This document shows, piece after piece, positions 32,526 through 59,057 of a DNA stretch of 64,000 nt. Made by a program: the position numbers and the translations under genes. The notes under the pieces are model-generated. The model searched no databases. It had not been told where the DNA came from and saw only the letters and a list, made by a program, of their open reading frames with translations. The stretch is from Phytoactinopolyspora halophila. GTDB taxonomy: Bacteria; Actinomycetota; Actinomycetes; Jiangellales; Jiangellaceae. The stretch lies in contig NZ_QMIG01000001.1 in the NCBI RefSeq assembly GCF_003287285.1, positions 124,001 through 188,000 of the forward strand. The letters are read 5' to 3'. Position 1 is the first letter of the stretch. Each line of letters opens with the position of its first letter.

Positions 32526-33746
32526 TCAGCCACCGCCACCGTCGCCACCGCCGTCGCCGCCGCCCGGACCACCACTTCCTGAAACGCCACCGCCACCCAG
32601 CGCGTCACCGAAACCGCCGAAGCTGGCGAAGCTTCCATCTCCGCCATCTGAACTGAACGCACCACCGGGTCCACCGTCGCCGTTCGTGCCCGACAGGAGA
32701 TCGCTCGACTGGCCGCAGGCGTCCGCGAAGTCGCACAGGCCGGCCCAGTGCGGCTCGACCTCGTGACCACTGGATGCCTTGCCAGACGACTTCGCATACA
32801 CCCAGCCACGCAGGTTCGCCAGCCCCAGCAGCGCGACGACGAACGGCATGCTTGCCGCGCCCGGACGGCGGGAGCCTTCCAGCCGGGATCGCGCGGCATC
32901 CAGCAGCCGATCCCCGGCAGGCGTGCGCGGCCCGAGGTGCCGCCGGGTCACGAGATGGACGCCATATGTCGCCAACCATGCCCCGCAGAACGCCAGTCCT
33001 GCCGCGCCGACGGCGTCCGGCAGCTCCGGCGCCACCAGGTAGACCAGCGCGAACACCGTGCCAAGCAGTACCAGAGCGGCGACGCCGAAGAAGCGCAGCA
33101 CCAGCACCAGTACCAGCGGGGTCGCAAGGAATAATGGCACGGTCAGGAGACGGGGAGCGCCCCCGCTCGCGGAGCTGGCAGCGAGAAACATCATGCTGAA
33201 TAGGATTCCGGCCGCGAGCGGAAAAACCATGATCGACTGGATTCCGACGGCGAGCGAGTGCAGCCGCTCAATGCCACGTAGCCGCTCCGCCGGGAGCAGC
33301 AGGCCGGCCGAGCGCAGCCGGGACAACGCCGGTTGCGTCCACCGGCTCCGGCCCACAGCGGCCACCAGCACCGCCGGGTGGCAGGACGGGCGACGGGCGA
33401 CGACATCCATCGCGGCCACATCCAGCTCGTGATCGAGTCCGGTGTCACCGCGCCCGTCGTCGTTTCCAACGGCCTCGACCCGGGCGAGTGGTTTGCGGAT
33501 GCCGCGCCCAGCGCGTCGTACCCGGATGCGCCCGTCGCGATACAGGCGGGCCAGCACCACCTGACCCAGGCGCCGTTTCCCGCCAGCGAGGAGCGCCAGC
33601 TCGTGCTCGTCGAGATCGTCCACGGTCAGGGCCGACCCCTGGGCCGCCCGGGCACGCATCCGCCGCCCTCGCATGCCCGTCAGCACGTAGACGAGGCCGA
33701 GGAGCACGAACACTCCCCCGATGATCACCGGTACGAGCACGGTCAC
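32526..33746 (-). CDS. TIGR04222-type membrane protein with Gly-rich tail
   Basis: A 406-residue membrane protein of unknown function. One N-terminal helix (VLVPVIIGGVFVLLGLVYVLTG) is followed by a cytoplasmic domain (LTVDDLDEHELALLAGGKRRLGQVVLARLYRDGRI), several helices near 190-300, and a C-terminal Gly/Ser-rich tail that ends in repeated GGG. This layout is typical of TIGR04222 proteins. GTG 33746 is chosen for GGGGAG at 9 nt; GTG 33752 is an alternative. Longer open frames run into the palindrome upstream and are not credible. Confidence 0.75.
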   Translation of the reverse strand: MTVLVPVIIGGVFVLLGLVYVLTGMRGRRMRARAAQGSALTVDDLDEHELALLAGGKRRLGQVVLARLYRDGRIRVRRAGRGIRKPLARVEAVGNDDGRGDTGLDHELDVAAMDVVARRPSCHPAVLVAAVGRSRWTQPALSRLRSAGLLLPAERLRGIERLHSLAVGIQSIMVFPLAAGILFSMMFLAASSASGGAPRLLTVPLFLATPLVLVLVLRFFGVAALVLLGTVFALVYLVAPELPDAVGAAGLAFCGAWLATYGVHLVTRRHLGPRTPAGDRLLDAARSRLEGSRRPGAASMPFVVALLGLANLRGWVYAKSSGKASSGHEVEPHWAGLCDFADACGQSSDLLSGTNGDGGPGGAFSSDGGDGSFASFGGFGDALGGGGVSGSGGPGGGDGGGDGGGG

Positions 33747-33796
33747 TGTCACGATCTCCCCACTCGTCACGCTCTGCGGCGCATCACACCCTAGAT

Positions 33797-33867
33797 CCCT
33801 CTCCCGCTGATCATGAACACTAGGCGTCCTATGTGGACGCCTAGTGTTCATGATCAGCGGGAGAGGG
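33797..33867. repeat. Palindromic repeat class B, copy 1
   Basis: Perfect 33-bp arms around a 5-nt centre (TATGT). The central 49 bp start TGATCATGAACACTA and match the copy at 57782-57840 in arms and length. It lies between the TIGR04222 gene and the leaderless unit of srmL, ending 3 nt before the -10 box at 33871. No open frame inside it is believable. Confidence 0.92.
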
Positions 33868-34046: not shown

Positions 34047-35180
34047 GTGTCTACGACTACTGCCATCCCCTCCGGCGCGCCCTCGCATCTTGACGTGCCA
34101 GCCCTGGTCAACGCGCTCTCCGTAACCGATCTGACCGATCCGGCGAGCGGCCCGCATGCGCTCCAACAGCTCGTCGACGCAGCCGTGTCCGCGCTGAGCG
34201 GCCTGTGGAACGTGGAGGTCAGGACACTACGTTCCGGGCCGATCGTGGCCGTCGAGGACAACTACGACCGCCTCGGGTACCCATCCGACACCATCGTGCG
34301 CGACACTCGATACACGCGATACGTCAGCAACACGACGATGCTGCGTAGCCACACGTCGGCCGGCATTCCACCAGCGCTTCGGCGGCTCGCGGCCGAACAA
34401 CCGGCCAGCGACGTCCTGCTGGTGCTGCCCGGACTCTGCCATCGCCGGGACACGATCGACCGGCTCCACACCGGCACGCCGCACCAGCTCGACCTCTGGC
34501 TGCTGCGGCGCGGCGGACGTCGGCTCGATCACGACGATCTCCTCGAGATGATCGGGACGCTGATCGATGCGCTCCTCCCCGGTTCTCACTGGCGGTGGAG
34601 CCCCGCCTCACACCCCTACACCGTCGACGGCCGGGAAGTGGACGCCATCCGCGACGGTACCCCGGTCGAGATCGCCGAATGCGGCCTAGCGGCGCCCGAC
34701 GTGCTCGCTGCGGCCGGCATGGATCCCTCGTCGTGGACCGGACTCGCCCTTGGCATAGGGCTGGATCGACTGTTGATGCTGCGCAAGGGCATCCCGGATA
34801 TCCGGCTCCTGCGGTCGGACGATCCGCGAGTCGCCGGGCAGATGCTCGACCTCGCCCCGTACCAGCCGGTCTCCGACCTCCCTCCGGCACGGCGTGACAT
34901 CTCCATCGCGGCACCCCCGGATATCGACGCCGAGATCCTGGGCGACCAGGTCCGGGAAGCGTTGGGCCCGGACGCGGAGCTGGTCGAGGAACTCGCGATC
35001 GTGTCGCACACTCCCTACGGCGAGTTGCCCGCGTCCGCACGTCAGCGGCTAGGTATCCGGCCGGGCCAGGTCAACCTCCTGGTTCGCCTCATTCTCCGCC
35101 CCGCCAGCCGGACGATGACCAGCGCCGAAGCCAACGAGCTACACGATCGCGTCCACGCTGCCGTGCATCACGGAGGGTAG
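34047..35180 (+). CDS. srmL: PheS-related ligase-like protein SrmL
   Basis: A 377-residue class II aminoacyl-tRNA-synthetase-like protein that resembles a fused PheRS alpha catalytic core plus the C-terminal ferredoxin-fold anticodon-binding domain of PheT. Motif 2 region: YVSNTTMLRSHTSAGIPPALRRL. Motif 3: GLALGIGLDRLLMLRKGIPDIRLL. The FDX-ACB-like domain starts at PPARRDISIAAPP. The normal PheRS genes are not here, so this is a paralogue with unknown substrate (the family is described as a PheS-related ligase of unknown role). GTG start with AAAGG upstream; a leader peptide and hairpin precede it. Confidence 0.85.
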   Translation: MSTTTAIPSGAPSHLDVPALVNALSVTDLTDPASGPHALQQLVDAAVSALSGLWNVEVRTLRSGPIVAVEDNYDRLGYPSDTIVRDTRYTRYVSNTTMLRSHTSAGIPPALRRLAAEQPASDVLLVLPGLCHRRDTIDRLHTGTPHQLDLWLLRRGGRRLDHDDLLEMIGTLIDALLPGSHWRWSPASHPYTVDGREVDAIRDGTPVEIAECGLAAPDVLAAAGMDPSSWTGLALGIGLDRLLMLRKGIPDIRLLRSDDPRVAGQMLDLAPYQPVSDLPPARRDISIAAPPDIDAEILGDQVREALGPDAELVEELAIVSHTPYGELPASARQRLGIRPGQVNLLVRLILRPASRTMTSAEANELHDRVHAAVHHGG

Positions 35181-57398: not shown

Positions 57399-59057
57399 TC
57401 ACCGCAGCGGCCGCACAGCACGATCACCGCTGGCCAGACCGGCACTGATGGCAGCGCGGGCGGGTTTGCCGGTGGACGTGCGTGGCATCCGGTCGACTTC
57501 GAACCAGCGCCGCGGCCGCTGCGCCCACGCGAGCCCCTCACGTGCGGCTTCCTCCAGGCGGGCACGGGGGATGCTCTCGCTGGCGGGCTCGATCACGGCA
57601 GTCACGACAGCACCGAGGGTGCCGTGCGGCATTCCGACCACGGCGACGTCGGAGATCCCGGGAACCGCGCGAAGGACGGTCTCGACGTCCTCGGGGATCA
57701 CGGTGGCGCCTCCGGTCAGTACCGCACCGTCGCCACGCCCACGCAACCGCAGCTCCCCCACTCCGATATCCCGCTCCACGTCCCGATGATCATGAACACT
57801 AATCGACCTATGTAGTCGCTTAGTGTTCATGATCATCGGGGCTGGCGTTGGGGCGAGATCGGCGAGGTCGCCCACGGTGGCCCAGCCCGCGTCGTCGGTC
57901 CGGAACGGGCCCGATGCTCCGGCAAGGTAGCCCTCGGCAACCCACGGCGAACGCACCCACACCTCACCGAGCCCTGAATCCTGGTCAACAGGCCGTACGT
58001 CGATCTCCACACCGTGAAACGGACGCATCCCCGCACCATCGGGATCGACCGCGACGAACGACAGCTCCACCGCGCCGTAATAGGCGACAACGTCGACGCC
58101 TACCCGCGCCGCCCGCTCACGCAGGCCCTCCGGCGTGGCGGCGCCGCTCACCATCGCCATCCGCGGCCGGCGAGCCCGCCCGGCCGTCCCAGCCGGTGCA
58201 GCTTGCCCAGCCGTCGCAGCCCGCCCGGCCACGACACCCTCTCCACTCGCGGCATCGCTGTCCTGCTGTCCCCCGCCACTGGCCCGTTCGAGCTCTGTCA
58301 CCATGACGTCGATCATGTGTGGAACGCCGTGCATGATATCCGCGTCCCACACGACATCTCGTGCCGTGCGTGCGGACCATGCTCCGGTGGCGATCACCCG
58401 CGCACCGGTGGCGAGGCCGTGCAGCGCCGCGAAACAGAACAACGACGACGCAAGCGGCCCGGGGACGAGCACCGAGTCCGTCTCATCCATACCGCTCAAC
58501 GCTACGGCCGCCGGATACGACTCCGTCCACGACGCGCGCGTCCGCACGATTGCCCGGGGCCGGCCGGTGCTGCCCGAGCTGAAACCCGCCCACGCCAGAT
58601 CATGAGGTGCGGCCGCACCCCACTCGTCGGCGCCGGATCGCCTCCACGAGGCTCGGGCTCCGCCACCCCCGGGCACGCCAGGCCGGGGCGCTCCGGGCGG
58701 CGGCCACGTGGAGAGGTGCAGTGCGGGGCGGATAACGTCGAGGATCTCCGCCTTGCGCGGCGTTTCCCACGCGGCGTCGCACACCAGGGGGATCACGCCG
58801 GCCAGGTCGCAGGCGAGTATGGCGGCCAGCGTGTCGGCTGGCTCGGCAAGGTCCACGGCGACGATCTGGTCACCGCGCACGTCACGCCCACGCACGGCGT
58901 CCTGTCCACGCAACGCGTCGTGCCGGCGCAGCGCCACCGCGCCGGCCTCGATGTCGTCTGCGAGCGCGGCATAGCTGAGCTGCCGCTCCGGCGAACGCAC
59001 CGCGATCTCGTCGGGTTTCCCCAGCGCGTGCGCCATCACTTCCCTGGCTACTGGCAC
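57399..59057 (-). CDS. AMP-dependent acyl-CoA ligase (YhfT-like) with in-frame palindrome insert
   Basis: A 552-residue ANL-family ligase. AMP-binding blocks are AWAGFSSGSTGRPRAIV, YYGAVELSFV and GDLADL, and the C-terminal Lys is in PRTSTGKPARAAI. Residues about 406-425 (PMIMNTKRLHRSISVHDH) come from a 59-bp palindrome at 57782-57840, placed just before the hinge DGAV. A second Gly/Ala-rich stretch near 265-295 is also unusually long. In Bacillus the yhfT homologue lies with bioY and a thiolase. Substrate may be a pimelate-like acid; not proven. Confidence 0.86.
   Translation of the reverse strand: MPVAREVMAHALGKPDEIAVRSPERQLSYAALADDIEAGAVALRRHDALRGQDAVRGRDVRGDQIVAVDLAEPADTLAAILACDLAGVIPLVCDAAWETPRKAEILDVIRPALHLSTWPPPGAPRPGVPGGGGARASWRRSGADEWGAAAPHDLAWAGFSSGSTGRPRAIVRTRASWTESYPAAVALSGMDETDSVLVPGPLASSLFCFAALHGLATGARVIATGAWSARTARDVVWDADIMHGVPHMIDVMVTELERASGGGQQDSDAASGEGVVAGRAATAGQAAPAGTAGRARRPRMAMVSGAATPEGLRERAARVGVDVVAYYGAVELSFVAVDPDGAGMRPFHGVEIDVRPVDQDSGLGEVWVRSPWVAEGYLAGASGPFRTDDAGWATVGDLADLAPTPAPMIMNTKRLHRSISVHDHRDVERDIGVGELRLRGRGDGAVLTGGATVIPEDVETVLRAVPGISDVAVVGMPHGTLGAVVTAVIEPASESIPRARLEEAAREGLAWAQRPRRWFEVDRMPRTSTGKPARAAISAGLASGDRAVRPLR
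57782..57840. repeat. Palindromic repeat class B, copy 2, inside a gene
   Basis: 26-bp arms (one mismatch, starting CCCGATGATCATGAACACTA) and a 7-nt centre. Its 49-bp core (57787-57835) aligns with the copy at 33808-33856. It is read through in frame by the acyl-CoA ligase gene, without a stop codon, which is rare for a palindromic repeat. Confidence 0.92.

Follow-up and report, generated by a model that had tools for sequence, protein, structure and literature searches.

A palindrome read in frame within an acyl-CoA ligase gene of Phytoactinopolyspora halophila belongs to a dispersed family that brackets an AbiEi/DUF559-type gene in related genomes

A palindrome that lies in frame within an acyl-CoA ligase gene of Phytoactinopolyspora halophila is one of the stray copies, numbering well over a hundred, of the end-pieces of what is apparently a small mobile unit, in which a single gene, here called gene X, stands between two palindromes. 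The new observation is that in four relatives the same palindrome brackets a gene X unit, in the species' own variant or a closely similar one. It is likely that the ligase palindrome is a solo terminal repeat of this AbiEi/DUF559-type unit, and gene X is proposed to spread and homogenise the solo copies. The palindrome-gene X unit is apparently an undescribed mobile unit; a search of the open-access literature found nothing that links DUF559 or AbiEi genes with dispersed palindromes.

Results

The palindrome within the ligase gene

The window is the whole 64,000-nucleotide stretch of DNA analysed here, from a Jiangellaceae genome of 5.04 Mb in 77 contigs (G000). Its menE-like acyl-CoA ligase gene (57399-59057, minus strand; PF00501 and PF13193) contains a solo palindrome at 57782-57840. 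The core (57787-57835) consists of the left arm TGATCATGAACACT (57787-57800, plus strand), which is the invariant core of the subfamily, an inner stem and loop in the variant typical of the window's genome, AATCGACCTATGTAGTCGCTT (57801-57821), and the right arm AGTGTTCATGATCA (57822-57835, plus strand). Together with the palindromic flanks CCCGA and TCGGG this yields a 26-bp stem with one mismatch and a predicted RNA fold of -47.1 kcal/mol (z -10.6). The 552-aa ligase reading frame stays open across the palindrome, which encodes residues 408-424, MIMNTKRLHRSISVHDH. A second solo palindrome (33797-33867) lies between the divergent genes 32526-33770 (minus strand) and 34095-35180 (plus strand), and has 11-bp perfectly palindromic unique flanks and a perfect stem of 33 bp, with an RNA fold of -73 kcal/mol. 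No Rfam family was matched in the window. A preliminary description of the window had reported the 26-bp arms, the kinship of the two palindromes and the uninterrupted ligase frame; all three were re-derived here, and both palindromes are solo copies of the same dispersed family.

That description had also proposed that a palindrome added about 20 residues to the ligase between the GDLADL and LRLRGRGDGAV strands, and both the homologue alignment and the genome search bear this out. Residues 406-425 or thereabouts are missing from 17 of 19 homologues, among them those of G004, G007, G014 and Jiangella, and occur at the identical position in just two homologues, those of the close relatives G010 (P. 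halotolerans) and G012, each with its own inner stem. The insertion is thus common to G010 and G012 and is not private to the window's genome. Between G000 and the other two, the arms of the orthologous copies match at 27-28 of 28 bases and the inner stems at 12-13 of 21, a pattern in which the arms appear conserved at the DNA level and the inside appears homogenised genome-wide.

In-gene copies are known in three genes, and all of them are read in the one frame whose arm contains no stop, where ATGATCATGAACACT gives MIMNT. Across 246 readings, this IMNT frame was open in 85, the third frame in 43 and the TGA frame in 0. Besides the ligase, the three genes comprise glcE, with a copy in G000, G010 and G012 that is missing from G004, G007 and Jiangella, and a cydC-like gene, with a copy in G000 alone. 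The cydC copy lies within a linker whose length varies among homologues, so that this gene is not a clean test of insertion; the CydC query consisted of the last 146 residues and was used for locating orthologues. In a concatenated protein tree, G000 groups with G010, G012 and G014 (support 96). A clade of the Phytoactinopolyspora-type genomes (group g5) without G000 is rejected (AU 0.0003), and the data remain compatible with a tree in which G000, G010 and G012 are united (AU 0.125, not rejected). It is therefore enough to assume that each gene gained its copy once, long ago, and that G014 either lost it or never had it, and the shared ligase insertion is consistent with common descent. As a separate matter, the rejection of group g5 without G000 suggests that the genus boundary around G000, G004, G007, G010, G012 and G014 may need revision.

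A dispersed family with species-typical inner stems

The preliminary description had proposed a genome search for the core, which would have told against it had the core been confined to the two sites in the window. In the window's genome we found 87 palindromes in which both arms, TGATCATGAACACT..AGTGTTCATGATCA, are perfect, whereas the reversed-pattern control gave 0 matches there, indicating that the palindrome is not a product of chance. A broader probe, TGATCAT..ATGATCA, detected 163 copies in G000, 53-214 in the five genomes of group g5, 23-136 in Jiangella (group g2) and a handful in a few genomes of other families, with 0-1 matches for its reversed control. Among 118 relatives compared, the exact-arm form is restricted to G000 and four g5 genomes, and this subfamily is absent from the close relative G014. 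A scan of public genomes for the palindrome named P. halotolerans, P. limicola and P. endophytica.

The arms are identical across species and the inner stem is species-typical, being TTTGCCGTGC in P. limicola, AACCGTGC in P. halotolerans, AGTTGACC in G004 and AGTCGACC in the window's genome. By protein synteny, orthologous sites are occupied in two genera, with each genome carrying its own inner variant. In three genomes of other actinobacterial families (G026, G050 and G034), palindromes with TGATCAT..ATGATCA ends have different inner stems, for example TGATCATGCAATCCCGCCACC.

Gene X between matched palindromes

Gene X encodes an N-terminal AbiEi_4 winged helix followed by a DUF559/REase_MTES_1575 domain (Vsr-like, of the PD-(D/E)XK type), and PADLOC assigns it as AbiEi. 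The C-terminal part matches the PDB entry 3hrl, 'Endonuclease-Like Protein' (E 9e-4), and PF04480/PF18741 match it in several members and fall below the cut-off in others, which points to similarity with a nuclease-fold family. The DUF559 HMM by itself misses gene X in G000, and a custom profile detects it.

The unit is about 1.1-1.2 kb long and holds one gene, in the order palindrome, gene X, palindrome. Units of the exact subfamily occur in G010 (L298), G004 (L299), G012 (L300) and G007 (P. limicola; L301); in G010, gene X occupies L298:2759-3751. In each of the four, gene X is enclosed by TGATCATGAACA(C/G)T palindromes, which either match the genome's solo variant or are closely similar to it. 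In the G012 unit, whose gene X includes a run of N, the two palindrome copies are identical over 54 bp, and the solo variant of that genome (..AACACTAACCG..) differs slightly from the palindrome of the unit (..AACAGTAACCG..). The stop codon of gene X is usually the first TGA of the 3′ palindrome, and the palindrome TGA has this role in three of the four units. Their neighbour genes all differ, so the units do not represent one inherited locus.

The association extends beyond the exact subfamily. In a uniform test of about 74 gene X loci, 43 had matched flanking palindromes (score at least 28), versus 0 among 200 ordinary genes with lengths similar to that of gene X; no palindrome pair was detected at about 30 of the 74, and some loci of G022 and G024, from other families, pass the test. 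Protein and palindrome distances correlate across units (Mantel r 0.42, p 2e-4, n 40). Two palindrome pairs in G017 with a pitch of about 1.07 kb, picked on spacing alone, both enclosed gene X; one pair in G008 at about 1.03 kb enclosed an ordinary gene. The Jiangella genomes G017 and G018 (about 96% identical) also differ at one site, where a palindrome-gene X-palindrome arrangement in one stands against a decayed version with a different palindrome variant in the other; a second site displays the same type of replacement, with gene X units that have differing palindrome variants. These comparisons show directly that gene X is physically tied to matched palindromes, that the tie recurs, that fixed sites undergo turnover and that the solo copies of each species are similar to its unit.

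In the window's genome gene X is present at six loci, and at none of them does the ligase-type palindrome bracket it; they have other palindromes or none. As no gene X unit of the subfamily was found in G000, the mover may have been lost, may be unassembled, or may have been active in an ancestor. No plasmid copies of gene X were found. On contig C43 of G000 (L245:867-2111) lies a gene X unit whose palindrome (TCGGTGTGGAGTTTCCGCGCG...) is longer and belongs to another subfamily.

Placement relative to genes and stop codons

Gene context was assigned for 123 copies with gene models from a simple gene caller of our own. Copies outside genes tend to sit where genes end: the flanking genes are convergent for 36 copies, tandem for 64 and divergent for 15, and convergent over divergent gaps are enriched relative to background gaps (odds ratio 2.9, p 0.0016). 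Five copies lie inside ORFs, three of them at the same ligase site. The element's first TGA is the gene's stop codon in 48 of 138 facing gene-end/element pairs; among the 64 gene ends inside elements, these 48 compare with 8 in the second frame and 8 elsewhere (P 1e-11 versus equal frames). The ends of 119 copies are of the CCC(A/G)-TGATCAT type, and locus-specific complementary flanks reach about 12-15 bp beyond the arms, with a perfect extension of at least 8 bp in 20% of copies versus 1.2% of shuffles. At one P. limicola locus (L131:698-747), two convergent genes stop on the two TGAs of a single palindrome, and 26 bp of extra perfect symmetry cause both proteins to end in PSPPRLSP.

These features could be explained if the palindromes were host-selected 3′-end hairpins, acting as terminators, protectors of mRNA 3′ ends or regulators coupled to translation stop, with the ligase copy a stray. 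The strong predicted hairpins, the clustering at gene 3′ ends, the use of the element's TGA and the flanks that lengthen the stem all favour such a role. However, the flanks 3′ of the palindrome are rich in G/A and no U-tract follows it, which is not the arrangement of an intrinsic terminator, and copies also sit between divergent genes and within several genes. Moreover, a close relative, G014, lacks the subfamily altogether, and the matched palindromes around gene X would be left unexplained. We therefore regard host-selected hairpins as an unlikely account of the family. As for insertion into the loops of terminators that were already in place, the species were too far diverged for alignments of empty sites to reveal an uninterrupted hairpin.

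Discussion

As another alternative, the palindromes might be operators or a regulon of AbiEi-type regulators, in which gene X binds them to repress itself and the dispersed copies are regulatory. The promoter of AbiEi contains inverted repeats to which the protein binds (PMC3985639). The N terminus of gene X is AbiEi-like and a palindrome lies upstream of the gene, and all of this would suit such a circuit. A matched palindrome is nevertheless present at the 3′ end of gene X as well, where it provides the stop codon, most solo copies lie at the 3′ ends of unrelated genes, and some are in frame within enzymes, so we judge a purely regulatory function to be quite improbable. Least plausible is a conventional MITE or REP, whether its parent was a RAYT (Y1 tyrosine transposase) or some ordinary insertion sequence. 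Copy number, length, 3′-end bias and within-genome homogeneity resemble those of REP and MITE families. Against such an origin, PF01797 (Y1_Tnp, IS200/IS605-like) had 0 matches in G000 with positive controls detected, flank and arm composition of the 119 copies gave no GTAG or CGTC tag, no target duplication was recognised, and it is gene X that recurs between matched palindromes. At the palindrome pairs looked at, no parent transposon with a DDE transposase was seen.

We return to gene X as the probable mover. Given that AbiEi proteins bind inverted repeats, gene X would recognise its cognate palindrome, and its nuclease domain may provoke copying or homing-type gene conversion. Such copying or conversion would spread solo copies and homogenise their inner stems within a species, and most copies would persist between genes, typically just where a gene ends and can use the terminal TGA as its stop codon. 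The ligase copy would then have entered a hairpin turn in frame long ago, in an ancestor that the window's genome shares with G010 and G012. That gene X moves or homogenises the palindromes is what we infer from these sequence comparisons. On balance, we somewhat favour a broader proposal, namely that the units represent a new class of bacterial mobile element built on a single gene for an AbiEi-winged-helix/Vsr-like nuclease, whose palindrome is recognised by the nuclease, forms the end repeats and also supplies the stop codon. Under this proposal, nuclease-provoked copying would spread solos that are homogenised species by species, other families of the class would show related layouts, and peptides would occasionally be added in frame to enzymes.

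The closest parallel is the REP/RAYT system (REPtron, REPIN). RAYT genes are reported to have two flanking REPs in every case (PMC2817692), and gene X units share this architecture of an enzyme gene with two flanking palindromes and dispersed solos, although the enzyme is unrelated. In both systems a gene for a DNA-cutting type of protein lies between two palindromes, the solo copies are mostly intergenic and the variants are genome-specific. REP palindromes are 20-40 bp long with GTAG/CGTC tags, whereas the palindromes described here are 49-75 bp long with TGATCAT termini in most subfamilies. Gene X also differs in combining an AbiEi winged helix with a DUF559/Vsr-like domain in place of a Y1 HUH transposase, and the terminal TGA of the palindrome is the stop codon of the unit gene and of many neighbours.

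The preliminary description had drawn a comparison with the RPEs of Rickettsia, which are about 150 bp long and have 44 insertions in genes of R. conorii (PMC10969869). The likeness holds for in-frame reading, with a short peptide added to unrelated metabolic genes (here the ligase, glcE and cydC). It does not hold for the family as a whole, which is made of elements of 49-75 bp, is rare in genes and is tied to AbiEi/DUF559-type coding units with a nuclease-type gene. For these palindrome-bounded units we know of no RPE counterpart. With the AbiEi antitoxins of AbiE systems and DUF559 proteins, gene X has in common an AbiEi-like N-terminal domain, and AbiEi recognises inverted repeats (PMC3985639); in gene X, however, this domain is fused to an endonuclease-fold C terminus and the gene is bounded by matched palindromes. 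Homing endonuclease genes (Vsr-like) likewise pair a nuclease-fold gene with a repeated cognate site and show replacement or conversion-like turnover, but gene X lies outside any intron or intein, and its unit has palindromes at both ends together with solo derivatives.

REP-like palindromes with an associated enzyme have been regarded as a single type of system, that of the RAYTs, and gene X brings an unrelated protein family with the same bond to palindromes. In the libraries used here, this multicopy AbiEi/DUF559 family is annotated as antitoxin or unknown, and the bond to palindromes suggests a function for it. The same bond offers a testable explanation for the abundant repeats of these high-GC actinobacteria, which furnish actinobacterial examples of palindromes kept in frame within enzymes and illustrate that repeat DNA can supply a gene's stop codon.

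A further observation concerns other mobile DNA in the window's genome. A putative IS30-like transposase fragment at one contig end found no confirmation in Pfam or NCBIfam. Several G000 copies of the palindrome, mostly at contig ends, are broken by the same foreign end (..GGTGCTTGCAA.. or close variants; L014:1501-1570, L033:1-63, L169:1-90, L173:17360-17430 and L174:1-160), which suggests a multicopy insertion sequence with the palindromes as its targets.
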